From assembly GCF_900103285.1 (NCBI RefSeq), contig NZ_FNGS01000012.1, positions 62,001-126,000 on the forward strand: 64,000 nt of DNA, read 5' to 3'. The position numbers were made by a program, and so were the translations under genes. The stretch is from Siphonobacter aquaeclarae (GTDB lineage Bacteria; Bacteroidota; Bacteroidia; Cytophagales; Spirosomataceae). The notes below the pieces were generated by a model. That model did no database searches. It was not told the DNA's origin and saw nothing but the letters and a program-made list of their open reading frames with translations. Of this stretch, positions 2,612 to 54,660 are shown one piece after another; within the stretch, counting starts at the first letter, position 1; the number at the start of each line of letters is the position of its first letter.

Positions 2612-3649
2612 ATGAAAACCGTATCTTTCTCTATCGCCGTTCTTCTTTTCTTTCATTTTCAAACAACCACCGTCATGGCACAAAAACCCGCCGAAACCGA
2701 TCCCGCTATCCAGTCACAAACCCGCGCCTTCCTGAAGGCGCTCAATTCCGGAGGCGGCAAGCCGCTGGAGCAGCTTTCCCCGGAAGACGCCCGCCAGGTA
2801 TTGGTTGGCGCACAGAAATCCGTTGAAGTAGATTACTCCGGAATCGAGGAAAGTGAGCGAACCATTACCCAGGATGGTGTCAGCGTCACGATTCACGTCG
2901 TGAAGCCGAAGGGGGCCTTCCCAAACCTGCCTGTATTTATGTTCTTTCACGGAGGAGGCTGGGTGCTAGGGGATTACCCGACACACCGCCGGCTTGTCCG
3001 GGACCTGGTTGTAGAAAGCGGAGCCGCCGCTGTCTTTCCGGACTATACGCCCTCTCCCGAAGCGCAGTATCCCGTAGCCGTCAACCAGGCATATGCTGCT
3101 ACGCAATGGGTGGCCGCGCACGGCGCTGAAATCGGCGTGGATGGTTCGAAACTGGCCGTTGCCGGAAACAGCGTCGGCGGAAACATGGCGGCTGTCGTCG
3201 CCCTTCTCGCGAAAGACAAAAACGGCCCGAAACTCAGACAGCAGGTATTGCTCTGGCCGGTTACCCACGCGTCTTTTGAAACCGAATCATACCATGCCTA
3301 TGCCGAAGGCCGCTTCCTGACGCGGAACATGATGATCTGGTTCTGGGATAATTACACAAAAGACGCCGGGAAGCGCGCCGAAATATATGCCTCTCCGCTC
3401 AACGCTACCCTTGAGCAATTGAAGAACCTTCCTCCGGCGCTCGTACAAACGGCAGAGAATGATGTTCTCCGCGACGAAGGCGAAGCCTACGCCCGCAAGC
3501 TCGACGAAGCCGGCGTACCTACTACGCTGACCCGCTACCAGGGTATGATCCACGACTACGGTCTGCTCAACCCCCTGGCGCACGTCCCGGCGGTGCAGAC
3601 AGCCATCCGCCAGGCGGCAGTGGTACTGCATCATGTGTTGTTTCAATAA
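2612..3649 (+). CDS. Secreted alpha/beta hydrolase (HSL-type esterase)
   Basis: This 345-residue protein has a signal peptide (residues 1-24, ending TVMAQ) and an alpha/beta hydrolase fold-3 domain. The oxyanion-hole motif HGGGW is at 113-117, the nucleophile elbow GNSVGG carries Ser187, an acid lies in AENDVLRDEG, and the catalytic His is in GMIHDYG near the C-terminus. This is the hormone-sensitive-lipase (family IV) esterase pattern; the likely substrates are short acyl esters, and the location periplasmic or outer-membrane. It follows the OsmC gene by 32 bases and ends at a strong bidirectional terminator. Confidence 0.9.
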   Translation: MKTVSFSIAVLLFFHFQTTTVMAQKPAETDPAIQSQTRAFLKALNSGGGKPLEQLSPEDARQVLVGAQKSVEVDYSGIEESERTITQDGVSVTIHVVKPKGAFPNLPVFMFFHGGGWVLGDYPTHRRLVRDLVVESGAAAVFPDYTPSPEAQYPVAVNQAYAATQWVAAHGAEIGVDGSKLAVAGNSVGGNMAAVVALLAKDKNGPKLRQQVLLWPVTHASFETESYHAYAEGRFLTRNMMIWFWDNYTKDAGKRAEIYASPLNATLEQLKNLPPALVQTAENDVLRDEGEAYARKLDEAGVPTTLTRYQGMIHDYGLLNPLAHVPAVQTAIRQAAVVLHHVLFQ

Positions 3650-3660
3650 GTGATAGGTGG

Positions 3661-3695
3661 AAAAAAGCAGGAGTCCAGCGGGCTCCTGCTTTTTT
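3661..3695. terminator. Bidirectional rho-independent terminator
   Basis: A 13-bp perfect stem (3661-3673 with 3683-3695) encloses a 9-base loop. It has A6 on the left and T6 on the right, so it works in both directions between the convergent esterase and beta-helix genes. Confidence 0.9.
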
Positions 3696-3737
3696 CGTTT
3701 TCAGGTGGGTTTTTTCCGGACAGGGGTAGCGACGTGT

Positions 3738-6083
3738 CTATTGTTTCACGAACCGGACGGTCCGGCCGTTCCCGAACCGGAGCAAATAGGCGCCGGCCGG
3801 GAGTGGGTGGATGGCTATTTCCTGGGTTTGCTGAAGAAGTACTACCCGTTGCCGGACGCTGCCGGTCATATCGAGAACCTGAATTTCGGTACCCGTCAGA
3901 GCCGGATCTTCGGTCAACACACGAATCGTACCCGTTGCTGGATTTGGACCTATGACCAGTGTACCTTCTTCTACGAGAGACAGGGTCCGGCTGCGGACAA
4001 AGCTGCCGTCTTCGTCGACCATCCGGAGGCGGTAGTAGCGGGTGCCCAGAAAAGGCGAGGTATCCCGGAACACATAGGACTGAAGCGCGGAATTACGGGC
4101 GGGAACCGTTGCCAGCGTTGAAAACTCGGTGCCGTTGCTGCTGCGTTCAACGGCGAAATGACTGACGCGCTCTTCGTCGGCCGTTTCCCAATTCAGGCGG
4201 GATACGCCGTTTTCCCGTACGGCCGTAAACCGCAGCAACCGAAGCGGCAGGGGAGAATCGGTAGCCTTGACGAAAAACCCGCTGAAACCGGTCACCGAAA
4301 AGGTAATCTCCCAACGGTTGGCGATTGCATTCCATTGGATATCCGCATCGGCCGGATCGATTGTGACGGGTGCGCCGGGATAGCTCGACGGGCTGCCGGA
4401 AAAATCGCTGCTTTCTCCGCTCCGCTTTTCGATCCGGAGGTTTGCGATGCCGGATACGTCGGCTGGCCCGGTTGGAAGTTTCTGCGCGCTCACGGCATTG
4501 AAGGCCGTGAATTCCTCCTGGGTAAAGTACAGCGTTACGGTTCCGGTGGCACTACCGGCATTTTCGCGCGGGGTGATTTCATAGTGGCGGGCGACGAATC
4601 CGGCGGGCTGTTCTGTTTCTACCCAAACCCGCGCACCGGTCAGTCCGGAAAAGCCGGTCGACGTCACCGAAGCAATGAGCGACGAACAATCATCGCCGAG
4701 GTAGTGGGTTGTCGTATTAGCAGCCTGAAACTGAATGGATTGCCCGAGCCAGCCGGGTAATCCCGCTGTAGCCGGGTCGGCAGGAGGAACGGCGGCGGAT
4801 TCCGTTTCATAAGCGCCGAGATCGACCGTGCCGTACTGAATGCGGACATTGCCTTCGAGGTCCGTTGTAACGCCGGCGGGCACACCCGTATTGTTGCCTT
4901 TGTCGATAGCGGGGCTACAGGGGCGCAGGCTGTAGTCGCCGTTTTCGTGGTCGGGAACTGGGTTGACGAAGAGCGGATCGGGGCTTCCCGCCAGATTGCC
5001 CGTGCCCGAAGCTCCGCCCTGGATCAGCGAGTATTGATAGGTAACAGCGTTGCCCGAACCGGATGCTGTGACGCCTGCCGTATTGCCGTAAACGATGGAA
5101 TTGGTGATGGTCATCACCGAAAAACCATCCGGTACAATCGCGCCTTTCGGTACGTATGTGCCGCCGTTTGCCGTATTTCCGGAAAAAGTACAGTTACCGA
5201 TAGCAAGAGCGGGCAGGCTGTACGAACGCAGGGCAGGCCCGAGCCGGCTGACATTGCCAGTGAAAAGGCAGTTGGTGAACCGGGAGTTGGACGAAACAAC
5301 ACCGAGGAGGAAAATGGCTCCGCCCGCCGCGTCGTTGCTCGTGGCGGTGGTTTGGTTAGCGGTAAACCGACAGTTTTCGAGGATCAGGGAGGAGAGCGTC
5401 GCGACGGAAATCGCTCCCCCGGTTTTGGTAGCGGAATTGCCGGTAAACCAGCAGTGATCAAACCGGACAGCGGAAGCAGCTGTGACGTAGACCGCGCCTC
5501 CCTGTCCGGAGCTTCCCGGCGCTGCGTTGTTGCGGAAGGTGCAGTTACTGAGTGTGAAGGATCCTCCGGAATGGTAAAACGCACCTCCGGCCTGACCTGC
5601 CTGGTTTTGCTCAAAAAGACAGTTCCGGATCTGCGGAAGGGCGCCGCCGACATTGTAAATACCACCCCCGGTGGAGGCCGTCGCCCCGCCCCGGATGGTA
5701 AATCCGTCGATGACTGTCGTATTTCCGATGTTGAAGTTATTGAACAGAACACGTTCTCCGTTGCCCTGAAGCACAGAGGGATAATTGTCCCAGTTTCGGT
5801 CGGTCAGCGCCGGATTCCCTGACGCCGGGAATCCACCCAGGAGTTTTACCCCGTTTTTCATCACGAAAGAGCTACCGGCGGCGGGCTGATAGGTCCCGGC
5901 AGCGACACAGATGGAATCGCCCGCCGCGGACGCGGTAATAGTCGCCTGGAGATTGTTGCCGGCGGCGGCCCAGGAATTACCACCTGCGCCGGGAGCGCCA
6001 TCGGTCCGGACATACCGGGTGGTCTGGGCGGAGGCGGAGATGGATAGACAGATCAGGAGGACAAGCGGGTAGAGTTTCTTCAT
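3738..6083 (-). CDS. T9SS-sorted right-handed beta-helix protein
   Basis: A 781-residue secreted protein. It begins with a signal peptide (MKKLYPLVLLICLSISASAQ). Residues from about 20 to 430 form a parallel beta-helix region with repeating NCTFRNNAA, NCLFEQNQA and NCLFTGNVS motifs, the polymorphic-outer-membrane/choice-of-anchor-Q style. The C-terminal 75 residues, starting at VIGPNPATGTIRV, form a T9SS type A sorting domain, so the protein is probably exported through the outer membrane and anchored or released. No catalytic motif was recognised; it may bind or cleave polysaccharide. The gene stands alone between terminator 3661-3695 and a regulator gene. Confidence 0.88.
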   Translation of the reverse strand: MKKLYPLVLLICLSISASAQTTRYVRTDGAPGAGGNSWAAAGNNLQATITASAAGDSICVAAGTYQPAAGSSFVMKNGVKLLGGFPASGNPALTDRNWDNYPSVLQGNGERVLFNNFNIGNTTVIDGFTIRGGATASTGGGIYNVGGALPQIRNCLFEQNQAGQAGGAFYHSGGSFTLSNCTFRNNAAPGSSGQGGAVYVTAASAVRFDHCWFTGNSATKTGGAISVATLSSLILENCRFTANQTTATSNDAAGGAIFLLGVVSSNSRFTNCLFTGNVSRLGPALRSYSLPALAIGNCTFSGNTANGGTYVPKGAIVPDGFSVMTITNSIVYGNTAGVTASGSGNAVTYQYSLIQGGASGTGNLAGSPDPLFVNPVPDHENGDYSLRPCSPAIDKGNNTGVPAGVTTDLEGNVRIQYGTVDLGAYETESAAVPPADPATAGLPGWLGQSIQFQAANTTTHYLGDDCSSLIASVTSTGFSGLTGARVWVETEQPAGFVARHYEITPRENAGSATGTVTLYFTQEEFTAFNAVSAQKLPTGPADVSGIANLRIEKRSGESSDFSGSPSSYPGAPVTIDPADADIQWNAIANRWEITFSVTGFSGFFVKATDSPLPLRLLRFTAVRENGVSRLNWETADEERVSHFAVERSSNGTEFSTLATVPARNSALQSYVFRDTSPFLGTRYYRLRMVDEDGSFVRSRTLSLVEEGTLVIGPNPATGTIRVLTEDPALTGTEIQVLDMTGSVRQRVVLLQQTQEIAIHPLPAGAYLLRFGNGRTVRFVKQ

Positions 6084-8032: not shown

Positions 8033-8130
8033 ATTCCGAGATACGCCTGCGGTAAATGTACCAAACACCGCAGAAAAACAGCGCGGGGAAAGACCGGCGT
8101 CTTCTCCCGAAAAACCGATACCAAACAAAA

Positions 8131-8223
8131 TCAATAATACAACCAAACGAGCAGCATGGCCACAGCGGCAATCAGGACAATAATGGCATAGACCAGGGCG
8201 GGTTTTCGCAGGGGATTTTGCAT
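8131..8223 (-). CDS. Possible 30-residue single-span membrane peptide
   Basis: A short frame encodes MQNPLRKPALVYAI and then one strongly hydrophobic segment (IVLIAAVAMLLVWLYY). Tiny single-span peptides of this kind are common but rarely annotated in Bacteroidota. It sits 98 bases upstream of the membrane TPR regulator on the same strand. In-frame starts also exist at 8253 and further upstream. The support is the hydrophobicity pattern only, so this call is weak. Confidence 0.35.
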   Translation of the reverse strand: MQNPLRKPALVYAIIVLIAAVAMLLVWLYY

Positions 8224-8361
8224 AGCCGAATATTCACCGAAGCGCCGGCCCATCCCGAAAATCCACCCGGACAAAAGCCGGACAACGCAGGACGCAGATA
8301 ATCCCGGACTCCCCTTCAAAAAAGCCCCCTTTCCGGAACCTTTCCCCCCCGATCCAACTCC

Positions 8362-8448
8362 ACTCTAAACTCTAAACTCTAAACTCTAAACTCTAAACTC
8401 TAAACTCTAAACTCTAAACTCTAAACTCTAAACTCTAAACTCTAAACT
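8362..8448 (+). repeat. Tandem heptamer repeat (CTCTAAA, about 12 copies)
   Basis: About 12 uninterrupted copies of the 7-bp unit CTCTAAA (87 bases) end 11 bases before the sialidase ATG. The array fills the place where the 5' untranslated region and ribosome landing site should be. A short degenerate run of the same kind (CTCTAAACCCCCAACCCTAA) occurs at about 58712-58731 next to the sulfatase gene. Confidence 0.95.
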
Positions 8449-8459
8449 AACTTGCCCCC

Positions 8460-9584
8460 ATGAAAACCCGCCTCCTTCTCTCGCTGCTGCTATCCGCCGG
8501 TATACTCCACGCGCAAACACCCGTGTTTACTTCGGGTTCAGATGGTTATAAGTCGTTCCGCATCCCCGCGATCGTCCGGACGCCGAAAGGAGAGTTGCTC
8601 GCCTTTGCCGAAGGACGGGTAGGCGGAGCCGGCGATTTCGGAGACATCGATCTCGTTCTGAAGCGCAGTTCAGATGACGGAAAGACCTGGTCTTCCCTGG
8701 AAAAGATCGTCGACAACGGCACACTCCAGGCCGGGAACCCCGCACCGGTAATCGACGAAACCGATCCGGCCTTTCCCGGAGGGCGGCTATTCCTCTTTTA
8801 CAATACCGGAAACAACCACGAAGGCGAAGTACGTAAAGGCAAAGGCCTCCGGGAGGTATGGGTAGTAACCTCGGCGGATGGCGGCCGGACCTGGTCTGTT
8901 CCCGAAAACATCACCGCTCAGGTGCACCGGCCCAAACAGGAGCCGTATTCATTCCCGGACGACTGGCGGAGCTATGCCAATACGCCCGGCCATGCCGTTC
9001 AGGTACCGGCCGGGAAATACCGGGGGCGGATTTTCGTCGCCGCGAACCATTCTGCCGGAGATCCCAGGCCGCATTTCACCGACTACCGGGCACATGGTTA
9101 CTATTCCGACGATCACGGCAAAACCTACCACCTGGCAGAAACCGTTGCCTTTGACGGTTCAAACGAAGCGACGGCGGCCTGGCTTCCCGATGGCGGCCTG
9201 CTTTTCAACGCCCGTAACCAGAGCGGTACCCCGAAAGCGCGTATCGTGGCCAGGAGCAGGGATGGTGGTGCTTCGTGGTCGTCCGTGCAAATCGATCCCT
9301 CCCTTCCTGATCCCGTTTGCGAGGGCAGTCTGCTGAATCTCCGCCGTCGAAGAGGCCACATACTTGCGTTCTGCAATGCGGCGGATACCGCGCGCCGTGA
9401 CCGGCTGACGCTTCGGCTCAGCAAGGATGGCGGTATCAGTTGGACGACCGGAATCGTTGTGGACAGCGGGCCGCGTGATTTTACGGCTTATTCCGACCTG
9501 ACAGAACTCGACCGCAGGCGGATAGGTGTACTTTACGAAAGGGAAAACTACAGGCAGATCGTGTTTAAGGTCGTGGAGTTGTAA
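8460..9584 (+). CDS. nanH: Secreted exo-alpha-sialidase (GH33)
   Basis: A 374-residue enzyme with a signal peptide (residues 1-18, cleavage before QTP). GH33 hallmarks are all present: FRIP (R34), AEGR (R53), the acid/base region DFGDIDLV (D59/D62), five Asp-boxes (SSDDGKTW, SADGGRTW, SDDHGKTY, SRDGGASW, SKDGGISW), the glutamate in SNEATA and the tyrosine nucleophile in AYSDL. It hydrolyses terminal sialic acids from glycoconjugates in the periplasm or outside. No sialic-acid transport or catabolism genes are adjacent, so it is probably scavenging or unmasking. A heptamer repeat array directly precedes the start codon. The ATG at 8460 is fixed by the signal peptide. Confidence 0.95.
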   Translation: MKTRLLLSLLLSAGILHAQTPVFTSGSDGYKSFRIPAIVRTPKGELLAFAEGRVGGAGDFGDIDLVLKRSSDDGKTWSSLEKIVDNGTLQAGNPAPVIDETDPAFPGGRLFLFYNTGNNHEGEVRKGKGLREVWVVTSADGGRTWSVPENITAQVHRPKQEPYSFPDDWRSYANTPGHAVQVPAGKYRGRIFVAANHSAGDPRPHFTDYRAHGYYSDDHGKTYHLAETVAFDGSNEATAAWLPDGGLLFNARNQSGTPKARIVARSRDGGASWSSVQIDPSLPDPVCEGSLLNLRRRRGHILAFCNAADTARRDRLTLRLSKDGGISWTTGIVVDSGPRDFTAYSDLTELDRRRIGVLYERENYRQIVFKVVEL

Positions 9585-9698
9585 GGACCTTTCGGCAGCA
9601 GGGTCGGGGGCGCCGCGACCCAGGGCGTTGCAGCACAGGCAGACGGCGGCATACTTCCGATGATTCTGTAAAAGTACCCCTACAGCGTCCTGCACTGT

Positions 9699-9718
9699 CC
9701 CGGCCGGATACGGCCGGG
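9699..9718 (+). terminator. Probable terminator after the sialidase
   Basis: An 8-bp perfect stem (CCCGGCCG with CGGCCGGG) with a GATA loop is followed by TGTTTATTT. The T-run is interrupted, so efficiency is uncertain. Confidence 0.5.
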
Positions 9719-9729
9719 TGTTTATTTCT

Positions 9730-10200
9730 GATACTTTTTGAGACAATCCGGGAGTTCCGGAGTGGGTAGTGATACGGTTGATCCGACTTTGTCATTGGCC
9801 GGAATGTTACGTATGTGCCGGAGAGTTAGCGCATTAACGTAAAAAATACACGCAGGTTAGCTGCCGCCCGAACCAGTCCGGAATAGCTTTTCCGGAGACG
9901 AAACACGGATAATCGTTTTTGAGACAGCTATAGAAAGACCGGTATTTATTTAAAAAATTTATTAATTAAGATTATATCAATAAATAAAATTCTATTATTT
10001 GATCAATATCTCTAAGAATATACAAAAATATGACTCAATATGCTGCTGAATAGTAGCAAAGACACTTGAAAATTTTGTGTTTGAAGGGATTTTTAAAATA
10101 AATTACAAATATTTCCGAACGGCAGGGTATGAATTATCGGAAAGTCCCTTATTCTTGTGTAGGATTTCACGAATGTTTATTGTGATAATTCTGAGACAGC
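9730..10200 (+). repeat. Three direct copies of a GATA...TGAGACA motif
   Basis: The copies are at 9730-9745 (GATACTTTTTGAGACA), 9908-9928 (GATAATCGTTTTTGAGACA plus GC) and 10184-10200 (GATAATTCTGAGACAGC), all in the same orientation and all upstream of the resolvase-like regulator. Spaced repeats of this kind are candidate protein-binding sites. No function is shown. Confidence 0.5.
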
Positions 10201-10391
10201 GAGACAAATACAGAGGGACCGGGAATAGGAATAGCGCTCAAACAGATACAGTACCCCGTCTTTCGTGACCCGTTTCAGTAGCTTTTTCATCGCAAAGAGC
10301 AGGAATACAACGGTACCATTTTCTCACATCAATCCTGCAGGGCGGCCGGGCTGGCGGCTTTTGCGGAAAGACGCCCACTAACTACCTGGTT

Positions 10392-11012
10392 ATGACGATC
10401 GGTTATGCTTGTGAAGGCCCTTCGGCGCGGGACTTATCCCTGCAGCTAGGCGCGCTGATGGAGTACGGCTGCGACGAAATTATCCGCGAAAACCAGCCGG
10501 AAGAGGGCCGGATCGAGCTGGCCCGGGTATTGGTCCGGCTTCGTCGCGGCGACCGGATCGTGGTGTGGCACCTGGGTTGCCTCGGAGATTCCTGCGCCCA
10601 GCTTGTTCGCCTGCTTTCGGGGTTGAGGAGCCGGGAAATCGCTGTTTCCGGTATCGCGGATGAGTTCGACAGCGCCTGCCCCGAAAGTCCGGTGCTGTTC
10701 CGTTTTGTACGTTCCCTGCTTGATTTTGACCGGACGGACCGGCTGCGGTCTACCTTATCTGAACCGCCCGCAGGCCGCACCGGCGGCGGCCGGCCGAAGG
10801 GATTTCCCAAAGAAGTCATCGATAAAATCCGCAAGATTCAGCTGCTGAACCGATTACACCGCCCGGAAGAGATTATCCGGATGCTCGGACTGAGCCGGGC
10901 AACCTATTACCGTTACCTGAAAATCGGCGAGCAGTATGCGGAGGAGGACCTCCACTTGCTCGGCCGCCCGACAATACCGGCGCGACGGGAGAAAAGTAAC
11001 TCCCTCGGCTGA
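10392..11012 (+). CDS. Serine resolvase homologue lacking catalytic residues (probable regulator)
   Basis: A 206-residue protein aligning with Tn3/gamma-delta resolvases along its whole length: N-terminal domain (IGYA...LSLQLGALMEYGCDEI), the E-helix-like SLLDFDRTDRLRSTL, then GGRPK and a C-terminal helix-turn-helix (RPEEIIRMLGLSRATYYRYL, about 157-176). The catalytic positions are lost: Arg8 is C7, Ser10 is G9, and the Asp67-Arg68-x-x-Arg71 group (DRLGR) is GCLGD at 62-66. Arg45 is kept as R40. It therefore should bind DNA but not recombine it. It lies 137 bases before a SusC gene on the same strand, which suggests it has been adopted as a transcriptional regulator of that locus. Confidence 0.85.
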   Translation: MTIGYACEGPSARDLSLQLGALMEYGCDEIIRENQPEEGRIELARVLVRLRRGDRIVVWHLGCLGDSCAQLVRLLSGLRSREIAVSGIADEFDSACPESPVLFRFVRSLLDFDRTDRLRSTLSEPPAGRTGGGRPKGFPKEVIDKIRKIQLLNRLHRPEEIIRMLGLSRATYYRYLKIGEQYAEEDLHLLGRPTIPARREKSNSLG

Positions 11013-11149
11013 CCACCATCGCCATCTGAAAATCTGTTTGACTGCCTGCTCACCGAGCCCGGCCGGGAACTTCCATGCCCGTTCGGAGCAGTCGGCCCGC
11101 GATCCCTTAACCGTCAATGAATTATCCACTTTAACACCATCTATCTAGC

Positions 11150-14100
11150 ATGAAGACTATTTTACTTGCCTTTTTTCTCCTGGTGGCGGGGCCGGTGCTG
11201 GCTCAGCGGATCTCGGGGAAAATCACCAATGCCAGCGGGATACCCATCGCCGGAACGTCGGTTCTGGTGAAAGGAACCACCCGCGGAACGGTCGCAGACG
11301 CGGCCGGACAATACGTCATTCAGGCGTCAGAAGGAAACACGCTCGTCTTTTCCTTTGTCGGATTTCAGACGAAGGAAGTTCCGGTCGGAAAGGCAACCGT
11401 ACTCGATGTTACACTGACAGAATCTGACCGACAGCTCGACGAAGTCGTCGTAACCGCCCTCGGTATCCAGAAAGAAGCCCGCCAGATCGGCTTTTCGGTT
11501 CAGAAAGTCGACGCCGGCGACATCACCAAAGTAGCGCCGCCCAACATGGCACAAGGCCTCATGGGAAAAGTTGCCGGTCTGAATATCTCCGTGCCGAACG
11601 GCATTGAAGGCAGCTCCCAGCGGATTGTCATCCGGGGCAATAACAGCCTGCTGGGCAATAACCAGCCGCTGCTGGTCATCGACGGGATTCAGGTGCAGGA
11701 AAACGCACTTGGCGTCGACAACAAAAATGGAACTACCTCCAACGACGTTTCGACACTGCGCGACTGGGGCAGCTACCTCAACTTCATCAACAGCGATGAT
11801 GTCCAGGAAGTGAACGTGCTAAAAGGTCCTACGGCGGCGGCTCTCTACGGCGCCCGCGGCGCTAACGGGGTTATCCTGATTACGACGAAAAAAGGCTCCC
11901 GGAAACCCGGTCTCGGCATCGATTACAACTTCTCGACCCGCTGGACACACGCTTACCGTTTTCAGGAATTGCAGAATGAGTACGGTTATGGAGGCGCAAT
12001 CGGGCTGTGGTCGGCCGAAAAACCCTTCCCCACCGATGCCAACGGAAACCCCCGCTACCCGGCAGAAGCTCCGTGGTCAGGCGCGAATATCCCCGACAAA
12101 TTCGGCAGCCACGGCCCCGTTCCCGGCGGTAAAAATTCCTGGGATTTGTTCAGCTGGTACGGCACGGCCGCGTCCTGGGGCCACCGACTCGACGGCACCG
12201 AGATTACCTGGTGGGACGGCCAGAAGCGGAAGTGGGAAGCCAACCCGGATAACGTCCGCTCCTTCTTCAACACCGGGAATACCACGACGCACAACCTGTC
12301 CTTTTCCGGAGGCGGCGAGTTTGGAACCGTGCGGGCGTCTATCAGCCGGACCGACAACAAGGCGATCATTCCGAATAGCCATTTCAACCAGACAACCGTC
12401 AGCGTAGGGTCAAACATCGATATCTCGAAGAAACTCCGCGCCGAAGCGACGACGAGCTATACCCGGTTCAACCGCCTCAATACGCCCGATATCGGCGGTA
12501 ACTCCTGGACAAAGTTCATGACCTACGGCATGAGCCGGGACTACAAAAACATCGAGAAAGATATCTTCCGCAACCCCGATGGCTCAAAGAACCTCTTCGG
12601 AAACGACATGTACCCGTCGTCCTACCCCTACGGCGGCTATGGCAAGGATATCTATTGGAATGCCTACGAGAACAACGTGAACCTGCAGCGCGATCAGCTG
12701 CTCGGCTCCCTCAAGCTTTCGGCAGAGGTAACGCCCTGGTTCAACCTCATGGCGCGTACCGGGATCGACTACAATACAAACGAATTTGAAACCAAGAATA
12801 CTCCGATCGACAAAGAAGGGCTGAAAGGGCAGTATGGTTTCGAACTGAACAAGAACTACACCATTACCTCGGAAGTACTCGGGACCCTCCATACGGATCA
12901 TTTCCTGACGAAGGACCTGACCGCCAGCCTCAGCGCCGGCGCGAGTTCCTGGTACAACCGCTACCACGGATCGAAGCAATGGAATCCGGGACCGTTCGGC
13001 GTGCCGTTCCAGTATTTCCTCCGGAACACGACCGCCTCTCTCGGCACCGACTACAGCACCTGGCTGCCGGACGAATACCGTCTCCAAAGCAAAATCAATT
13101 CGGTATACGGCATCCTCGATCTGGGGTACAAAAACATGCTGTTCCTGCAAATGACGGGCCGCAATGACTGGTCGTCGACACTGCCCGCCGCCTCCAACTC
13201 CTTCTTCTACCCGTCTGCCAGCCTTAGTTTCGTATTCAGTGAGGCGCTGGGGCTGAAAGACAAGCAATCCTGGCTGGATTTCGGAAAACTCCGCGTTGCC
13301 TACGCCGCCAGTGCCAACGGTACCGATCCGTACCGGACCAGCTACGTGTACAATGCCGGTTCGTTCGGCGGGTATCAGACGCGCAGCCTTCAGACCAGCC
13401 TGCCTCCGCTGGCCTTGCAGCCGCAGCGGTCCAAATCGTTTGAAGTGGGTACCCAGCTCAACTTCTTCGGCAACCGCCTCAGTCTCGATGTGTCTTACTA
13501 CCACATCCGGTCTACCAGCCAGATTCTCAGCGCGCCGCTGCCGGTATCTTCCGGGGTATCGAGTGTGACGTTCAATACGGGCGAGCTGCAAAACAAGGGT
13601 ATCGAGTTCATCGTCCGCGGAAATATCGTACGGCAGCAGAACTTCAGCTGGGATGTGACGCTCAACGGCGCGCACAACCAGAACAAGGTCGTCAGCCTCG
13701 ACCAGGGCGTCGATACCTATCCGCTGGGAGAAGTATTCGGCGTGACCTACGGCGTGGCGCAGCAGGTTCGTGTCGGTCAGAACTACGGAACGATCTACGG
13801 GTATGATTACAAGAAGGACGCCAACGGTAACCGGATCGTCGCCCGTATTATGGACAGCAACGGAGACAAAGTAATCGGTACCCGTTACGTCACGACGGAT
13901 CAACCCGTAGCCATCGGCAACTCCACTCCGAAACTGACCGGCGGTCTGGGTAATAACCTGCGCTACAAGGACTTCAGCCTCTATGCCCTGATCGACTACA
14001 AGCTGGGCGGCGATCTCTACTCGTCTGATTATGCGACGGCGATGGGCAACGGTCTTGCGCCGGAAACCCTGAAAGAGCGGAACGGCGGCGGACTTCCGTA

Positions 14101-14512
14101 TACCTATGTCGACGGTAGTCAGGCCAATCACGGCGTTATCCTCGACGGTGTTTTTGCTGACGGAACCCGCAATACGGACGTCGTCAACTACATGTTCAAG
14201 TATGCCGGGGTATATTCCGGCTGGTCGGACATCCGCCTGCCGCGCAGCGCCGCTGTTTTCGAAAATTCCTGGGCGAAGCTCCGGGAAGTATCCCTGACCT
14301 ATACCGTGCCGAAGAATGTGGCCGTGAAGTCAAAAATTGTACAGGGATTGTCGCTTTCGGTGATCGGGCGCGACCTCTTTTACCTCTTTACCACCTTGCC
14401 GGACCGGTTGAATCCCGAAGGTATCAACGGCGTCGGGAATACGCAGGGCCTGCAATGGGCGGCGTTCCCGGGCACGCGGACCTATGGTTTTTCAGTGAAA
14501 GCTCAATTCTAA
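11150..14512 (+). CDS. SusC/RagA family TonB-dependent outer-membrane transporter
   Basis: A 1120-residue protein with a signal peptide (MKTILLAFFLLVAGPVLAQ), a carboxypeptidase-regulatory-like domain (about 20-105, ending with the TonB-box-like DEVVVTALG), a plug domain (NNQPLLVIDGI, GANGVILITTKKG) and a long beta-barrel ending in an aromatic residue (FSVKAQF). SusC proteins import oligosaccharides or peptides across the outer membrane with a SusD lipoprotein lid. There is no N-terminal STN domain and no sigma/FecR pair here, so control is not by the anti-sigma route; the adjacent resolvase-like protein is the likely regulator. The substrate is unknown. Confidence 0.95.
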   Translation: MKTILLAFFLLVAGPVLAQRISGKITNASGIPIAGTSVLVKGTTRGTVADAAGQYVIQASEGNTLVFSFVGFQTKEVPVGKATVLDVTLTESDRQLDEVVVTALGIQKEARQIGFSVQKVDAGDITKVAPPNMAQGLMGKVAGLNISVPNGIEGSSQRIVIRGNNSLLGNNQPLLVIDGIQVQENALGVDNKNGTTSNDVSTLRDWGSYLNFINSDDVQEVNVLKGPTAAALYGARGANGVILITTKKGSRKPGLGIDYNFSTRWTHAYRFQELQNEYGYGGAIGLWSAEKPFPTDANGNPRYPAEAPWSGANIPDKFGSHGPVPGGKNSWDLFSWYGTAASWGHRLDGTEITWWDGQKRKWEANPDNVRSFFNTGNTTTHNLSFSGGGEFGTVRASISRTDNKAIIPNSHFNQTTVSVGSNIDISKKLRAEATTSYTRFNRLNTPDIGGNSWTKFMTYGMSRDYKNIEKDIFRNPDGSKNLFGNDMYPSSYPYGGYGKDIYWNAYENNVNLQRDQLLGSLKLSAEVTPWFNLMARTGIDYNTNEFETKNTPIDKEGLKGQYGFELNKNYTITSEVLGTLHTDHFLTKDLTASLSAGASSWYNRYHGSKQWNPGPFGVPFQYFLRNTTASLGTDYSTWLPDEYRLQSKINSVYGILDLGYKNMLFLQMTGRNDWSSTLPAASNSFFYPSASLSFVFSEALGLKDKQSWLDFGKLRVAYAASANGTDPYRTSYVYNAGSFGGYQTRSLQTSLPPLALQPQRSKSFEVGTQLNFFGNRLSLDVSYYHIRSTSQILSAPLPVSSGVSSVTFNTGELQNKGIEFIVRGNIVRQQNFSWDVTLNGAHNQNKVVSLDQGVDTYPLGEVFGVTYGVAQQVRVGQNYGTIYGYDYKKDANGNRIVARIMDSNGDKVIGTRYVTTDQPVAIGNSTPKLTGGLGNNLRYKDFSLYALIDYKLGGDLYSSDYATAMGNGLAPETLKERNGGGLPYTYVDGSQANHGVILDGVFADGTRNTDVVNYMFKYAGVYSGWSDIRLPRSAAVFENSWAKLREVSLTYTVPKNVAVKSKIVQGLSLSVIGRDLFYLFTTLPDRLNPEGINGVGNTQGLQWAAFPGTRTYGFSVKAQF

Positions 14513-14536
14513 CCGGCCCCTTACTTCGTACGAAAC

Positions 14537-16123
14537 ATGAAAAAACTACCGATAAAACTGGCCCTGGTCCTGACGCTGATGACCGCGGGCTGCAAAGACG
14601 GATTCGAAGAACTCAACAAACCGTGGGACAAGGCAGTCACCGCTCCCGTGGATCAGTTGTACAACGGTATTGTGTCGACGTTTGTCCTCGGCTGGCAGGA
14701 GCAGGCGACCTACCATTCCTGGATTTATCCTGTCACCCAACAGGCAATTGTGACGTCGGCTTCCGGCTATGTCATGAATAATGCGGCGTCTGAACTGTGG
14801 AGCAATTACTACCTGTGTCTGGGGAACTTCCGTTTGCTGGAAAAGAAGATTGAGGAAAGCCCCGACAAGGACAAATACCGCAACCTGCAGGCGATGGCCA
14901 AAACCCTGATGGCCTATAAAACCCTGAAGATGACCGGCTTTTTCGGAGATATGCCGTATTCGGAAGCAGGCCGCGCCGCGACCGAAGGATACACGAAGTA
15001 CCGCGCCAAGTACGATACCCAGGCGGATATCATGAAAACGGCGATGACTGAACTGAAATGGGCCGTCGACAACTTCAGCACCGGCGCCGACCAGATTTCC
15101 GTCGGAGCCGCCGAGACCTTCCTGAAGGGCGACATCGACCAGTGGACGCGTTTTGCCAACTCCCTGCGCCTCCGCTGCGCGCTGAACATCTCGGGTAAGG
15201 ACAAAACGACTGCGGCGGCAGTCGTGACCGAATGCCTCGCGAAGCCGCTGCTGGCAGACGGCGAGAACATCGGTATCTGGCCGAAATCGCTCGGGCTGAC
15301 CCTGGGAGGCCGGCGCTGGTCGTTCAACGCGGGGTTCTTCCACCGCATGGGTACCACGATGTGGAGCTGGATGACGACAACGGACGCCAAAGACGGCAGC
15401 GGAATCATCGATCCGCGCTGCCGCATTTTCTTTGAGCCGAACAATGCCGGAGAATGGGCGCCCTATCCGCAAAACCCGACGAATACAACGCCGGTAGAAG
15501 GAGGACAGCCATACAACGACGTCCGGCTTACGAGCTGGGCCACCAAGGGCGCTACCAATATCTACTCGCCGATCAACTACTATTTCGCTCAGGATCAGAC
15601 AACTATCCCTGAGTTGATGATAACGGCCGCCGAAGTGCACCTGCTGAAGGCGGAAGCGTATGTATCCGGCATCGGGGTTACCAAAAACACCACGACGGCG
15701 AAGGATGAGTATGAAAAAGGGGTAACGGCTTCCGTGAATTTCTGGACCAAAGTAGCCATGGATTCACCGGAATGGGTGGTTGCCAAACCTGCCGCCCTGC
15801 CTGCTCCTGCGGTAATCGCCGCATTGCTGAAGGCGCCGAAAGTGGCTTTTGACGCATCGACCGACGAGAAAGCGCTGCGTCAGATTTATGCCCAGCTGTG
15901 GATCGACGGATTCCGCCAGCCCTGGGATGTCTGGACGCTCAAACGCCGGACCGGCAACATGACGCCGATGTCGGAGACGAATACGGCTTACTATGACGCG
16001 AACTTTGCTGTCTATCACCGCTTTACGTTCCCCAGCTCGGAACCTGACTACAACAACGCCAACTGGCGCGCGGCGACAGGCGGAACGGACGTCGTCGGAA
16101 CGAAAACCTGGCTGGAAAAATAA
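14537..16123 (+). CDS. SusD/RagB-like outer-membrane lipoprotein
   Basis: A 528-residue partner of the preceding SusC, starting 24 bases after its stop. The lipoprotein signal ends in LMTAGC (Cys19 acylated). The sequence is of the SusD-like type 2 class (FEELNKPWDKA, alpha-helical TPR-rich body; C-terminal QIYAQLWIDGFRQPWDVW). It binds the ligand at the cell surface and closes over the SusC barrel. The gene ends just before a strong bidirectional terminator, so the transcription unit contains only SusC and SusD. Confidence 0.93.
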   Translation: MKKLPIKLALVLTLMTAGCKDGFEELNKPWDKAVTAPVDQLYNGIVSTFVLGWQEQATYHSWIYPVTQQAIVTSASGYVMNNAASELWSNYYLCLGNFRLLEKKIEESPDKDKYRNLQAMAKTLMAYKTLKMTGFFGDMPYSEAGRAATEGYTKYRAKYDTQADIMKTAMTELKWAVDNFSTGADQISVGAAETFLKGDIDQWTRFANSLRLRCALNISGKDKTTAAAVVTECLAKPLLADGENIGIWPKSLGLTLGGRRWSFNAGFFHRMGTTMWSWMTTTDAKDGSGIIDPRCRIFFEPNNAGEWAPYPQNPTNTTPVEGGQPYNDVRLTSWATKGATNIYSPINYYFAQDQTTIPELMITAAEVHLLKAEAYVSGIGVTKNTTTAKDEYEKGVTASVNFWTKVAMDSPEWVVAKPAALPAPAVIAALLKAPKVAFDASTDEKALRQIYAQLWIDGFRQPWDVWTLKRRTGNMTPMSETNTAYYDANFAVYHRFTFPSSEPDYNNANWRAATGGTDVVGTKTWLEK

Positions 16124-16147
16124 ACCAGGCTACTTGTGAATACCTTA

Positions 16148-16177
16148 AACGCTACCGGAGGGCATTCCGGTAGCGTT
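16148..16177. terminator. Bidirectional terminator between SusD and hydrolase genes
   Basis: A 12-bp perfect stem (16148-16159 with 16166-16177) and a GGGCAT loop are followed on the plus strand by a run of T. It lies between two convergent genes. Confidence 0.9.
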
Positions 16178-16180
16178 TTT

Positions 16181-16963
16181 TTATACCTGATTCAGAAACG
16201 TTTCGATGAGGTCGAGGACCAGTACAGGCAGGCGGCTACCGGGGTTTACAGCTTCAATTTCTCCGATGTAATCGCCGTGACCTCCGGGGAGAATGGCCAG
16301 CTGCGCTTTTGGCATGAGGCGGGAGAGAAAGACGGCGTGTTCGCGGGTGACGACGTCGTTGTCTCCGTTGATAATCAACACCGGAGCCTGAATACCCGCC
16401 ACCTGTTCATCCGGAATATCTGCAAAGGCTTTCATCCGGGCGACATCCCGGTAAAACATGGCTTCAAGTGCTTTTTCGTCGGAATTGACGGACAGGAATG
16501 CCTCCCGCAATCCATGGGGAAGCATGCCGAGGTTTGCATTATCAAATCCGTCGAAAAAACCGGGAAACATGCCGTCCCGCCGTGTCAGGGCAGAGCCGAT
16601 GATCAGCTTGTGTACTTTCTCCGGATGCCGGATGGCCAGCTGGAGGGTAGTCGTTCCGCCGTTACTGAAACCGAAAACGTCAGCTTTCGGGATTTCGAGG
16701 AGGGAGAGGAGGGCAGCGATGTCGTCGGCATCCTGCTCAAAGCTCAGCGGACGGTTGATGTCGGCAGTACGACCGTGCGCCTGCATTTCAACGGCGATCA
16801 CGCGGTGTGTACGGGCGAGGGTCGGAAGGATGCGGCCAAAGGTAGAGTCGATCGTCGAACCGCCGCCATGAATCAGCACCAGCGGAAAGCCTTCGCCGTG
16901 GTCTTCGTAGTAGAGTTGGAGGCCGTTGACCGAAGCATAGCGGCCGGAAGAGATTGTCGTCAT
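16181..16963 (-). CDS. Alpha/beta hydrolase
   Basis: A 260-residue cytoplasmic alpha/beta hydrolase. It shows HGGG after strand 3 (LVLIHGGGSTIDS), the nucleophile elbow GFSNGG, an acid in INGDNDVVT and the catalytic His in LPGGHGDYIG. The pattern is that of pimeloyl-ester carboxylesterases and epoxide- or dienelactone-type hydrolases; the substrate cannot be assigned. The ATG at 16963 is preferred over an upstream extension, because the promoter-like TATGTTTG box lies only 22 bases upstream of it. Confidence 0.88.
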   Translation of the reverse strand: MTTISSGRYASVNGLQLYYEDHGEGFPLVLIHGGGSTIDSTFGRILPTLARTHRVIAVEMQAHGRTADINRPLSFEQDADDIAALLSLLEIPKADVFGFSNGGTTTLQLAIRHPEKVHKLIIGSALTRRDGMFPGFFDGFDNANLGMLPHGLREAFLSVNSDEKALEAMFYRDVARMKAFADIPDEQVAGIQAPVLIINGDNDVVTREHAVFLSRLMPKAQLAILPGGHGDYIGEIEAVNPGSRLPVLVLDLIETFLNQV

Positions 16964-34398: not shown

Positions 34399-34711
34399 AA
34401 AATAAATTGAATAATTCTATTTTATTATTAGAAGTTAACCTGCATATTGCTGCCTTCAATTAAACGGACAAGCCAACCGCCTTCGGCCGAATCATGTTGA
34501 TTTATGAACGACCGTAACCAACCCTGAATGAAATCAAGTACTACTTCTTTCGCAGCGTAGTCTGCATCCGCCCAACCTGCTCGTCTTCTTTCTCTGATGA
34601 TTTGGACAATTTTCGTCTGAATCCGGTGTGTATTGGCCTTTTTTTTCTGTACCGGTGGTTTTATTTGTCAGACCTTTCGGCACACAACTTTTCACTATAA
34701 ATAACTCGCGT
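34399..34711 (+). promoter_or_regulatory. Leader C: AT-rich promoter region with 10-codon upstream ORF
   Basis: The AAAATAAATTG block (34399) and the motif ACCGTAACCAACCCTGAATG (34511-34530) match leader A nearly base for base, at about the same spacing (118 and 122 bases). The ATG at 34528 opens MKSSTTSFAA, ending at 34560. About 150 further bases without a recognised gene lie before the coding start. Confidence 0.5.
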
Positions 34712-37444
34712 ATGTCTGGTATTAAGCATATGTCATTGCTGATTAATCGTATATTTTTTGTCTTTTTTTTGCTGACGTCTTTTGACAGTATAAGTCAGGA
34801 AATAAACTGGCCGAGTACCATTCCGACAGGTAGCGGCGCCCAACAACCTATTAACAAGGTGTTTCAACGAGATGCTTCCGGCAAAGCAACGGTGAAATTT
34901 GTTGTATCTGCCGGATCTGCTGTCACGACCGTGAAAGTCCGTTTTAAGCAGTATGCAATAACCGGTTCCGATGGGTCTACGTATTCTCTTGGAGGGAGCT
35001 ATATAGATCCCAGACCGGGTTCGGCTTCATTGGCGGGTGACGGTGCATTGAACTTCGGCTCCAGCCCGTTTCAGGGGCTGGGCTCAAATACGGTAGTTAC
35101 CTATCAGCTGGATATTAAAGGCGGTATGTACCGGATGGAGGCAATCATCAACGGGACACAGAAAGAAGTAGATTTCGGAGTGGGAGAAGTACTGGTCATT
35201 GCGGGTCAGTCAAATGCTGCCGGGTATGTACATGACGGCTTCGACAAAAGCCTGGGTTACGGAAATGTGAAGTTTGTACATTTTAATAATACAAAGACTG
35301 ACTTCGAAGACGGAGATCCGAAAAATAACGATAAGTATTTTCCATGGTTCTGGTGCCGATTGGGTACTAAACTGGCTCAGAATCTTCAGGTTCCGGTAGC
35401 ATTTTATCAGACAGCGTGGAGCAATTCGAGCGTTGCCGACTGGCGCAAAAGTGCATATGAAGGCCAATCAGTACAGTTTTCACAAACAGGACAACCTTAC
35501 AAGAACTTCAAATCGGTTATCACTGACGTCCGGGGGAAAGTGGGCCTTCGCGGAGTATTGTGGCAGCAGGGTGAAAGAGACAACACCCAAAATGCCGGGG
35601 GGGTTATGCAGCAAACAGGCATTTTAGGTTATGACCAGAATCTGGCAGATCTGATTGTCAAGAGCCGTTCGGATATGGGTTGGACTGGTTTTGCGTGGGT
35701 CATTGCGCAGGCATCGATGAATTCGGGAATTTCAGATCCGGGAGGCATTGTTGCAGCGCAGCAGCGTGTCATTGGCCACACCGACGCGGGCGGGACGGTA
35801 CTCAAAGATTACGGAGATCCCCGGAAATCAGCACGAAATGGAGCGGATACAGTAAGCTCTCGCTTCAAGGGTCCGTATACCGACGAGATTCTTGGTTCGG
35901 CTCGCAGAAGTGGCGGCGGTGAGCCTACGCACTTCAGTACCAGCGCACTTTCCGGCACAAATTGTGGTCAATGTCAGGCGGCGGACAAATGGTTCACGGC
36001 CCTGACTCAACTGTCTTCCTATAACAACCGAAACTTTTTCGGTAATTCTGCTCCCGCCCTGAATACCCAGGTGACAGAGGGACCGACCGGTCTTTCCGAA
36101 TGCAATTGCGGATTTTCACTTCTTTCTGCCAGTCAGGTATCGGGACAGATGTCAGGTCAGTTTACGTTCCATTCCTGTAATGCCTTCAAAGTGAGATGGA
36201 CATTGCTGGACGGGACAACGGAGAAGGCCTCGGCGGAACTGGAACCAGGTGGGCCTACCGAAACATTTTCCATCCCTGCGTCTGTCAACTCCGGCAATTA
36301 CACGCTTCGCGTCGTTCCGGTAAGTTGTACCGGAAACAGCTCCAGTGTCTATGAAAAGCCATTTTCTTATACCAAGCCCGGTACTATAAGCTGGTATGTG
36401 AACGTAACGCCTTACCCGCTTTCCGTACCTGCGTCGGGCGGTACGTATTATATATCTGTCAACAGCAATACCAACTGGTGGATGACGGGTACTCCGGCAG
36501 CCTGGTCTTCGTTCTCAAATACCAGCGGCAGCGGTATCGGAACCATCACGGTAACCGTACAGCCGAATACGACGACCAGCAGCCGGTCGGTAACCATGAT
36601 GATCAATGCCGACAATGTCGCGGCGCAGCCCTACACCGTTTCCCAGGCGGCAGCTTCATCCGGATCCGGCACCTGCTACTACTTCGAACTCGCCAACTAC
36701 CACTATACCAGCGGGGTCACGAAACAAGCGATGGAGGTCAACGGGCAGGGAGTGGTCAAGATTCAGGACTTCAACACCTCGTCTTCTTCGCAGATATGGC
36801 GCGTTGAATCGGTTGGCGCATACAAGAAGATTTCGCGTGCATCGGATGCCAACTCGGTTTTAGGCGTGTCTGGCGGGCAGAGCAATATCGGCGATCAGGT
36901 GGTATTGCAGCCGTATTCCGGCGCTGATTATCAGTTGTGGGAAGAGGAAGCATCGTCATCCGTAACCACCAACTGCGCAGGATGTGTGATTTACAAGCAC
37001 AAGGCGAATGGAAACGTGGCATTCGGCAGTCCGCTGGGCAACTGGGGCGACGGCGACGCATCGGCTTCTGTCAACGACATCCGCCTGGTTTCGAAATCCG
37101 ACGCTTACATCTACGGAAACTTCAAGTGGTTCCGTACGCAGGTGGCATGCCCGGGCGGTGGCCGCGTTTCAGCCGAAGAAATCACCCAACCCGAATCCCG
37201 ACTGGCTGTTTCGTCCAATCCGAATGCCGGTGAATTCCGGGTCCGCTTCTTCCTGGCACCGGGACGGAAGGGAGACCTGGGCGTCACGGATCTGACCGGC
37301 CGCGTCGTCTACCAGCGCGCGGTAACGGGCGAGGGGGAACAAACGGTTGACGTTAAACTCGCTCCGTCTGTATCGGGTACGGTGATCGTTTCACTGAAGA
37401 CAGAGAAGGGGGTATTGTCAGAGCGGGTATTGGTGACGCGCTGA
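34712..37444 (+). CDS. Sialate O-acetylesterase-like / BACON / ricin lectin multidomain protein (T9SS)
   Basis: A 910-residue surface protein. After a signal peptide comes an SGNH-type esterase domain of the sialate O-acetylesterase (SASA) group: IAGQSNAAG with Ser167, VLWQQGERD (W284 to D290), and EPTHFST as the likely catalytic His block. The same unnamed four-cysteine module as in the previous protein follows (C464, C466, C489, C539), then BACON (about 560-645), ricin-type lectin (about 650-825) and a T9SS sorting domain. It would remove acetyl groups from glycans while bound through its lectin. ATGs at 34712 and 34730 are both possible starts. Confidence 0.85.
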   Translation: MSGIKHMSLLINRIFFVFFLLTSFDSISQEINWPSTIPTGSGAQQPINKVFQRDASGKATVKFVVSAGSAVTTVKVRFKQYAITGSDGSTYSLGGSYIDPRPGSASLAGDGALNFGSSPFQGLGSNTVVTYQLDIKGGMYRMEAIINGTQKEVDFGVGEVLVIAGQSNAAGYVHDGFDKSLGYGNVKFVHFNNTKTDFEDGDPKNNDKYFPWFWCRLGTKLAQNLQVPVAFYQTAWSNSSVADWRKSAYEGQSVQFSQTGQPYKNFKSVITDVRGKVGLRGVLWQQGERDNTQNAGGVMQQTGILGYDQNLADLIVKSRSDMGWTGFAWVIAQASMNSGISDPGGIVAAQQRVIGHTDAGGTVLKDYGDPRKSARNGADTVSSRFKGPYTDEILGSARRSGGGEPTHFSTSALSGTNCGQCQAADKWFTALTQLSSYNNRNFFGNSAPALNTQVTEGPTGLSECNCGFSLLSASQVSGQMSGQFTFHSCNAFKVRWTLLDGTTEKASAELEPGGPTETFSIPASVNSGNYTLRVVPVSCTGNSSSVYEKPFSYTKPGTISWYVNVTPYPLSVPASGGTYYISVNSNTNWWMTGTPAAWSSFSNTSGSGIGTITVTVQPNTTTSSRSVTMMINADNVAAQPYTVSQAAASSGSGTCYYFELANYHYTSGVTKQAMEVNGQGVVKIQDFNTSSSSQIWRVESVGAYKKISRASDANSVLGVSGGQSNIGDQVVLQPYSGADYQLWEEEASSSVTTNCAGCVIYKHKANGNVAFGSPLGNWGDGDASASVNDIRLVSKSDAYIYGNFKWFRTQVACPGGGRVSAEEITQPESRLAVSSNPNAGEFRVRFFLAPGRKGDLGVTDLTGRVVYQRAVTGEGEQTVDVKLAPSVSGTVIVSLKTEKGVLSERVLVTR

Positions 37445-51168: not shown

Positions 51169-51195
51169 CGTCATGTCGATAGAGAGGTGAAACCG

Positions 51196-54100: not shown

Positions 54101-54660
54101 AACACCAGCACAGCCGATTTATCGGAAACCTGAATCGTAAATTCCCCCGCCGAGTCGGTTACGGTGCCTTGCTGGGTACCTTTCAGGCGTACGCTGACGC
54201 CGGGGAGGCCCTTGCCTCTTTCGTCCACGACCGTTCCCCGGATGGGCGCTGCGAACACCACCACCGGCATCAGCGCCCGCAGGCCGGGGCGCATTTTGGC
54301 CTGGGGGGCCAGGTCCGTCAACAGGATGTATTTCCCCGAAACTTCATAGGAAATATTCAGGGGATGAAGCAACTGATCGAGCAGGTTGCCGAGGCGTTCC
54401 TTTTTCTGACGGATGGATACCTTCTGGTCCGACCGGATGACCTCCGGACTGAACACAAACCGGATGTTCCCTTCCTTCTCCAGCGCATGGAGCGCCCGCG
54501 CCACGTCCTGATTTTCAACATGTAGCTTGACGGTCTGATCGAGTACCTGCGCGCCGGCCGTCGCCGTCAGGGTTAAACTGGTAAGCAGAACGTGCCCCGT
54601 CGCGTGTAGCCAGCGACGGGCCTTTGTTCCGAAAGAAGTTGCATGTAAGAGGTTTTGCAT
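51196..54660 (-). CDS. SusC family transporter with N-terminal STN domain
   Basis: A 1154-residue TonB-dependent transducer. After a signal peptide comes an STN domain (about 43-115; VKLHVENQDVARALHALEKEGNIRF), then the carboxypeptidase-like domain (about 135-215), a TonB-box-like SEVVVIGYG, the plug (DPLYVIDGI, AANGVVIITTKRG) and the barrel ending LGGIQLGF. The STN domain contacts the FecR anti-sigma encoded directly upstream, signalling substrate binding across the envelope. The substrate is unknown. Confidence 0.95.
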   Translation of the reverse strand: MQNLLHATSFGTKARRWLHATGHVLLTSLTLTATAGAQVLDQTVKLHVENQDVARALHALEKEGNIRFVFSPEVIRSDQKVSIRQKKERLGNLLDQLLHPLNISYEVSGKYILLTDLAPQAKMRPGLRALMPVVVFAAPIRGTVVDERGKGLPGVSVRLKGTQQGTVTDSAGEFTIQVSDKSAVLVFSYVGYASQEVTVGEQTFLNIKLNPSDQALSEVVVIGYGTAKKKDVVGALDLISTKEAGSTTATNASQLLIGKSAGVQVLQSNGTPGSDSQILIRGTGSFTGVDPLYVIDGIQGSKTMFNTLAPQDIENITILKDASSTAIYGSAAANGVVIITTKRGKSGAPKISVNSQWGVSSAWKRLDLLNASQYVDLLRDFAATTNSALPAKFSTPDVLVTRNDWQDQIFRNGLVSQNDINVSGGSDKVSYNFSLSHMSQEAIVKAFVDNRTTARFALDETLGRFRFGQTLNIRYVKDKGEIASINDAVYYAPYKPVFDPTIPGGYSNTTNIDDFSNGNNPLAVINLKKPVTTSFVFFPQFYAEVDLFAGLRFRTQLSAQIGGGRSDSYQYAYNGGNNLSNPRQATLGYNNSSFYTIENYFSYNRQFGKHNVSGTIGNSYLDPGRSSSVTANGTNIPNDNIQNISVAQTQTVSGSAYGYARSSVISYFGRVGYTYDDRYIFSASYRRDGASNFGANNRFGNFYGLGLAWRFTDEAVFKSGLPFLSDGKVRVGLGRTGNNSIPTTGVTSVLTFSGNPNGNLVYSLGTNEGFNPGTTINTLANPNIKWETTDQTDIGLDLAFLDNKLTLGLDWYNRKSTGLLVSVPVSGSTGASLSGGQPSKYANAASAQNKGIEITLGYRSTAGKDFHYNVNGNIGINDNKVLSLGSEFAAPIQAGSFSNLPTFTYTAAGSAIGSFYGYSLDHVAKDQSEIDALNARARQQSGDAAAVYQGGLLPGDFIFKDIDGDGKVTPTDMKILGNPIPKVVYGINAGFNFRNFDFNLVLSGVGGLKLVNAFKFVTHNESTGHNASTAILDRWRKSGDIASLPRAGQSATGDGNLRPSDWWLENGDYLRVRNVTLGYSLPQGLLGKIAGGKAVRSVRLFVAGQNLLTFTKYTGYDPEVSTQNGGSYIFSRGIDDRLQLPQPRTLLGGIQLGF

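Follow-up and report, generated by a model that had tools for sequence, protein, structure and literature searches.

A catalytically dead serine recombinase beside a SusCD pair in Siphonobacter aquaeclarae, likely domesticated for DNA binding

Introduction

Why would a bacterium keep a recombinase that can no longer cut DNA, and does its position directly before a SusC-like receptor gene mean that it controls that gene? The question is raised by a 64,000-nucleotide stretch of the Siphonobacter aquaeclarae genome (contig NZ_FNGS01000012.1, positions 62,001 to 126,000; hereafter the window, with positions counted from its first nucleotide), in an assembly of 6.19 Mb and 19 contigs. Within it, a gene that we call P0001 encodes a relative of the Tn3 and gamma-delta resolvases, and the two genes that follow encode a SusC/SusD (SusCD) pair (Table 1). 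An earlier note on this DNA proposed that P0001 is a recombinase domesticated into a regulator of the pair.

Small serine recombinases have precedents for action through binding. In the accessible text of the sources, the Tn3 resolvase TnpR, bound at its res site, represses both its own promoter and that of tnpA (PMC7157771), and the Sin recombinase occupies site II as an inactive dimer, while Sin binding represses a test promoter (PMC2428073). We present evidence that P0001 is likely domesticated and that it likely has a role in DNA binding, one that is probably autoregulatory.

Results

By descent and fold, P0001 belongs to the small serine recombinases. It carries a Resolvase domain (Pfam, E = 1.7e-7, residues 14-115, over the cut-off) followed by a C-terminal helix-turn-helix (HTH), the latter matching HTH_23 below the cut-off (2.9e-4). 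Its top phmmer matches are Gin (4m6f/3uj3, ~5e-14), followed by Sin, gamma-delta and Tn3 resolvase. An AF2 model of the protein (mean predicted local distance difference test score [pLDDT] 66.5, with residues 113-134 and 181-206 below 50) has the fold of a recombinase, with a long helix E and a C-terminal domain of three helices; Foldseek aligned this model to the Tn3, gamma-delta and Sin resolvases with E values of ~1e-10 to 1e-9; domain placement differs from that of the resolvases, giving a root-mean-square deviation of 12-23 over the full length. The end-to-end alignment described in the earlier note holds overall, but with exceptions: P0001 has short deletions around residue 35 and within helix E, and its tail of ~15-20 residues does not align.

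As an enzyme, P0001 falls outside the family. Alignment to gamma-delta resolvase pairs R8 with C7, S10 with G9, D67 with G62, R68 with C63 and R71 with D66, the same replacements that had been noted earlier, and R40, the counterpart of R45, is the sole survivor of the six catalytic residues. Among homologues, the expected residue is found at S10 and R71 in 48 of 48, at R8 and R68 in 47, at R45 in 45 and at D67 in 41; these counts derive from 51 homologous loci, three of which were dropped for want of a readable N-terminus. The previously claimed retention of Arg45, the fold and the HTH is likewise borne out by the alignment, the Pfam matches and the model. Judged by these residues, P0001, once a small serine recombinase of the resolvase/invertase type, can no longer cut DNA by the known mechanism.

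The reading frame has nonetheless stayed open through extensive divergence. Of 38 columns that at least 92% of the 48 homologues share, P0001 keeps 19; given an active ancestor, most of the 19 losses would post-date inactivation. We simulated neutral decay to the same degree of loss from four starting genes (3000 runs each, frameshifts not modeled). The probability of acquiring no stop codon was 0.010-0.026, that of a hydrophobic core as well kept as that of P0001 0.003-0.008 and that of both together 0-0.001. A second simulation (12 settings, 400 runs each) gave a probability of no stop of 0-0.03 and a mean core fraction of 0.73-0.78 versus 0.95 observed, a value that single runs attained in most settings. 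GC content at third codon positions (GC3) is 0.70 in P0001 and 0.63-0.73 in ten neighboring genes. The undisrupted frame, the coding-like GC3 and the joint simulation probability of at most 0.001 disfavor unconstrained drift, and P0001 lacks the appearance of a pseudogene in decay.

Divergence is also uneven along the protein. The recognition helix, SRATYYRYLK, is identical (10/10) in P0001 and three active cousins, L034-L036. Compared with active L034, P0001 retains 6 of 7 residues in the arm (131-137) and 17 of 27 at 164-190, versus 35 of 112 in the catalytic domain (Fisher 0.0026); over residues 164-190, it matches L035 at 16 of 27 positions and L036 at 15. The trend is reversed when L034-L037 are compared with other active homologues, where mean identity is 0.55 in the catalytic domain and 0.31 in the C-terminal part, the latter being better kept in just 9 of 176 cousin-versus-active pairs (which are not independent).

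The DNA upstream of P0001 carries a motif that recurs before its active cousins. TGAGACA occurs four times in the window, and three copies (9739, 9920 and 10192) lie within 807 bp upstream of the gene, a cluster with P = 7.9e-6 under a uniform model; none of 20,000 first-order Markov sequences reached three copies. The longer form TTTTTGAGACA has seven exact occurrences in the 6.19 Mb, two of them upstream of P0001 and 181 bp apart; a reversed control pattern has none. The other five genomic copies are single, and a 3-kb look at each revealed no common neighbor. A blind search for repeats across 9585-11160 gave as its longest direct repeat a 23-nt sequence in two copies (78%), beginning TTTTGAGACAGC, at 9917 and 10189. 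A position weight matrix (PWM), seeded with the window-derived motif and thus partly circular, ranked motifs B and A (Table 1) as its top two window matches.

The genes of cousins L034, L035 and L036 are the same as those in loci L085-L087. In these three of the four nearest cousins, an unseeded repeat search found TGTCTCA ... TGAGACA inverted repeats just before the start codons, and TGAGAC (complement included) is the only 6-mer with three or more copies in every one of the 160-bp stretches upstream of L034-L036. More widely, 16 of 52 homologues have TGAGACA in the 300 bp upstream, although many are related and the 16 cannot be counted as independent. The 20-mer at the L086 site finds its best window match at 9907-9926 with four mismatches, a fit equaled by a single one of 2000 Markov sequences modeled on the region, and the L085/L087 form of the 20-mer has its best match at the same place with five. 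P0001 thus has cousin-type motifs upstream of its own gene, as expected at the sequence level of a resolvase-type autoregulator, although this correspondence is partly post hoc. We read the TGAGACA motifs as candidate retained operator or recombination half-sites. They weaken the claim in the earlier note that no res site lies nearby, which is wrong as stated; yet no paired, experimentally defined res site accompanies them. Wider upstream similarity to the active cousins, beyond the motif, gave local alignment scores of 21-28 with no shuffle comparison and is not taken as evidence.

Table 1. Features of the P0001 locus (positions in the window)
Feature	Position	Strand	Basis and remarks
Half-site-like motif A, TTTTTGAGACA	9735..9745	+	Second-best PWM match in window
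Half-site-like motif B	9907..9926	+	16/20 to active cousin L086 site; TTTTTGAGACA at 9916-9926; best PWM match in window
Half-site-like motif C, TTCTGAGACA then tandem GAGACA	10189..10206	+	Repeat and motif searches
Dead small serine recombinase P0001	10392..11012	+	206 aa; fold ~residues 1-123, HTH ~140-187 (open reading frame [ORF], Pfam, alignment, AF2)
SusC-like TonB-dependent receptor, proposed target	11150..14512	+	ORF, Pfam
SusD-like lipoprotein, SusC partner	14537..16123	+	ORF, Pfam
Terminator-like hairpin after upstream sialidase-like gene	9699..9718	+	Consensus match only; shuffles equal in number
AT-rich block, possible old SusC promoter region (weak)	9943..9967	+	Resembles block that precedes SusC by 80-110 bp in three Dyadobacter-type orthologues

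Searches for relatives of P0001 covered 59 relatives (E 1e-3), 6 genomes from its genus, 222 from its family (E 1e-22) and samples of 390 from the order (E 1e-27) and 395 from the phylum (E 1e-25), sets that overlap and contain the source genome and for which matches at these thresholds or stronger were displayed. At those thresholds, no relative exceeded ~38% identity over most of the length; two short matches among the 59 relatives have higher identity (41% over 74 aa and 43% over 61 aa). A peptide-pattern search of genomic and viral contigs found no close homologue, and phages and plasmids (at least 5000 plasmid records) yielded distant recombinases, all below 60% identity among the records counted and all below 37% among the matches listed. 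The tree groups P0001 with L092 and L034-L037, though support for this placement is weak (41/65). Apart from P0001, the only Resolvase-domain match to pass the search threshold in the genome is a short frame of 109-125 aa (contig C10:13748-14008; L083 ~8683-9012) that lacks the N-terminal catalytic motif and is probably a recombinase remnant. No full-length active Resolvase-domain partner was seen in the genome by a search that had matches in 10 of 14 control genomes.

The gene next to P0001 is indeed that for SusC, as the earlier note had it: 137 bp separate the stop codon of P0001 from the SusC start and 24 bp separate SusC from SusD, with all three on one strand. We found SusC orthologues (E at most 1e-180, the best three candidates per genome being scored) in 11 other genomes of the 222 in the family. 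None of their 11 upstream regions, of which that in L073 spans only ~1.1 kb, matches P0001 at 1e-3, and the gene is likewise missing from two more SusC orthologue loci in Chitinophagaceae-type genomes (L060, 30% identical, was left out). Linkage is therefore not conserved among relatives (0 of 11 family loci, 0 of 2 others). In three orthologous loci, the gene upstream of SusC encodes a kinase that we take to be argB. In four others (L074, L075, L076 and L078, oriented with SusC, ~3050-4290), the upstream place is occupied by a divergent gene, presumably a ROK/NagC-type regulator; because of this regulator-like gene in four loci, regulators of this SusCD family seem to have been swapped.

In the 137-bp gap before SusC, we found no terminator-like site, single-strand folding gave nothing (z -0.47) and there is no clear likeness to the leaders of orthologous SusC genes (12-75 of 200 shuffles as good). 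The AT-rich block upstream of P0001 resembles such leaders to a degree that 4 of 2000 Markov sequences matched; its -7 box is not kept, and we therefore give the likeness little weight. The shared strand, the short gap, the missing terminator-like site and the upstream leader-like block make co-transcription of P0001 with SusCD possible.

Other features of the locus are as follows. The upstream neighbor of P0001 is a BNR sialidase-like gene (8460-9584), and a gene with a sialic-acid acetylesterase domain (SASA; 34628-37444) lies in the same 64 kb. No transposase was seen among the genes flanking P0001 on both sides (part of the window's ORFs was scanned), in agreement with the earlier note that no transposon adjoins it; a 37-aa minus-strand ORF at ~10290-10180 was considered as a transposase start and dropped, tblastn against plasmids giving no match even at E 10. 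Rfam gave no match at gathering scores within 8100-16400, no DNA copy of 9585-11149 was found elsewhere in the genome, and scans for sigma-70-type promoters and for terminators returned no more than chance. SusC and a nearby SDR gene have no match in five congeners (thresholds 1e-150 and 1e-80), and the P0001-SusC region therefore looks accessory. A second SusCD pair lies on the minus strand (49573-55983), with a FecR-domain gene upstream. Such a gene upstream of SusCD is the ordinary layout for these loci, in contrast with the pairing of SusCD with P0001.

Two other genomic copies of TTTTTGAGACA, in L177 and L179 (motif at 1501), occupy promoter-like places: that in L177 stands directly before a start codon, and that in L179 is intergenic with TGATACA nearby. 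Both may be further targets of P0001. Among the active cousins, the recombinase is followed by an ORF at 10039-10323 in L085, 10037-10321 in L086, 10298-10582 in L087 and, for the fourth, 9612-10436 in L088; judged from sequence by eye, we take these to be toxin-antitoxin genes in the first three and a Fic gene in the last. The pairing of a recombinase with apparent toxin-antitoxin genes recurs among the cousins. The L092 recombinase (genome G624; L092 minus strand 2896-3588) lies near two notable ORFs, one presumably a CBASS-type nucleotidyltransferase and the other made up of many STLRGGG-like repeats. One relative, G008, has four matches of equal score, identity and frame length (C1:94798, C3:4685, C3:19307 and C4:236444), which suggests a multi-copy mobile recombinase.

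Discussion

The evidence leans, though not heavily, toward P0001 being a dead recombinase kept by selection that would bind its own upstream half-sites as a dimer and repress, loop or modulate there. From the lost active site, the fold, the HTH and the shared motif, all given by the sequence itself, we infer binding, dimerization, repression and co-transcription with SusCD. The TGAGACA-type half-sites bound by such a dimer would lie within ~650 bp upstream of P0001; once bound, the dimer would repress transcription from these sites, or loop the DNA and modulate it. Were SusC and SusD on the same transcript, autoregulation of P0001 would also set their expression; the motif positions place autoregulation first, with SusCD affected only if co-transcribed. 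In the simplest account, P0001 would keep the repressing half of the resolvase's double role. We offer more tentatively the idea that P0001 is a dedicated transcription factor encoded by the first gene of the SusCD operon, its old recombination-site binding now tuning nutrient uptake. The part of the earlier proposal that stands is a dead protein kept as a putative DNA-binding protein, which the neutral simulations, GC3, the recognition helix and the upstream motifs support; for control of SusCD by P0001, which is possible, the evidence is adjacency.

Several observations weigh against selection for binding at these sites or against the SusCD link. The motifs lie 194-647 bp from the P0001 ATG, farther than in the cousins, and all in one orientation; TTTTGAGACA with one mismatch occurs four times in the whole window versus 3.6 expected, so that the clustering alone is unusual. 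TGAGACA was first noticed in the window and the L086 20-mer was picked after its contexts there had been seen, an order of discovery that makes the motif P values post hoc, and the cousin repeat search and 6-mer count, although unseeded, came later than the recognition of the motif in the cousins. The exact promoter box TAnnTTTG is absent from the plus strand upstream, with one copy on the minus strand at 10030. Within the protein, helix E, which serves as dimer and hinge helix, is 3 aa shorter through a deletion and keeps 4-5 of 18 residues; C-terminal identity to L037 is 9 of 27 and not significant (P 0.54); and losses are not significantly concentrated in catalytic columns (4 of 5 versus 15 of 33 others, Fisher 0.34). 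No P0001 orthologue was found in the genomes searched. Lastly, 13 of 13 other SusCD loci examined lack a P0001 gene, indicating that P0001 is no standing part of the SusCD system.

That last result also fits a maintained DNA-binding protein unrelated to SusCD, which autoregulates only itself or acts elsewhere and adjoins SusC by chance. The accessory look of the region and the four nearest active cousins in the bacterial family, which by eye adjoin apparent toxin-antitoxin or Fic genes rather than SusC, point the same way; set against them are the shared strand, the 137 bp to SusC with no terminator-like site between and the SusC-leader-like block upstream of the dead gene, and we regard this alternative as rather unlikely. 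We give still less credence to a decaying pseudogene that is open by luck, its motifs being remnants of an old recombination or operator site. The failure to find orthologues, a very long branch (3.57 changes per column versus a median of 0.13), the loss of half of the near-invariant columns (19/38) and the want of a clear promoter are what such a gene would show, but the joint simulation probabilities (frameshifts not counted) and coding-like GC3 argue otherwise, as do a recognition helix preserved at 10 of 10 positions and TGAGACA exact three times despite divergence elsewhere. Least credible is continued recombination, whether P0001 works with an altered active site or assists, as an accessory subunit, an active recombinase in trans. 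The retained fold and HTH would permit it, and Sin offers the precedent of a catalytically inactive dimer at synapse site II (accessible text of PMC2428073). However, P0001 has lost its nucleophile, the aspartate and three arginines, and, since the only other Resolvase-domain match that the search gave in the genome is a 125-aa frame, it is unlikely to serve as a partner subunit.

Several known systems come close to the favored reading, that of a dead recombinase retained for binding. P0001 resembles the Tn3/gamma-delta TnpR proteins in its fold, its HTH and, as candidate motifs, the sites upstream of its own gene; unlike them, it has lost R8, S10, D67, R68 and R71, with neither a transposase nor a paired res site seen. 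The active recombinases L034-L037 and L092 differ from it in having intact catalytic residues, and L034-L037 are not beside SusC, whereas the recognition helix is common to P0001 and L034-L036, and TGAGACA-type motifs lie upstream of L034-L037. Sin at site II, as described in the accessible text, acts as a recombinase dimer without catalysis, as P0001 would, but Sin's catalytic serine is present and held off the DNA by site II geometry.

That mobile-element proteins are reused as transcription factors is already known. TldR is a nuclease-dead derivative of TnpB and differs from P0001 in being RNA-guided and in having an unrelated fold. In the accessible portions of the literature, TldR is described as a mobile-element-type protein reused as an RNA-guided transcription factor (PMC13418256), and a review of recruited elements gives Xre-type, antitoxin and ribbon-helix-helix examples, serine recombinases figuring there in catalytic roles only (PMC8987985). 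Searches of open-licence literature, the broader ones judged by titles and the opening of abstracts, returned no case of a bacterial inactive serine recombinase or resolvase acting as a regulator; the only match of the targeted search was vaccinia F16, labeled a "predicted inactive serine recombinase," which differs from P0001 in being a eukaryotic virus protein said to target nucleoli, with no bacterial operon link (PMC11980589).

If the more tentative reading is true, P0001 would be a catalytically dead serine recombinase serving as a bacterial operon regulator. With its active site erased and its operator-like sites kept, it would also represent a case in which nature has parted the cutting role of a resolvase from the repressing one.

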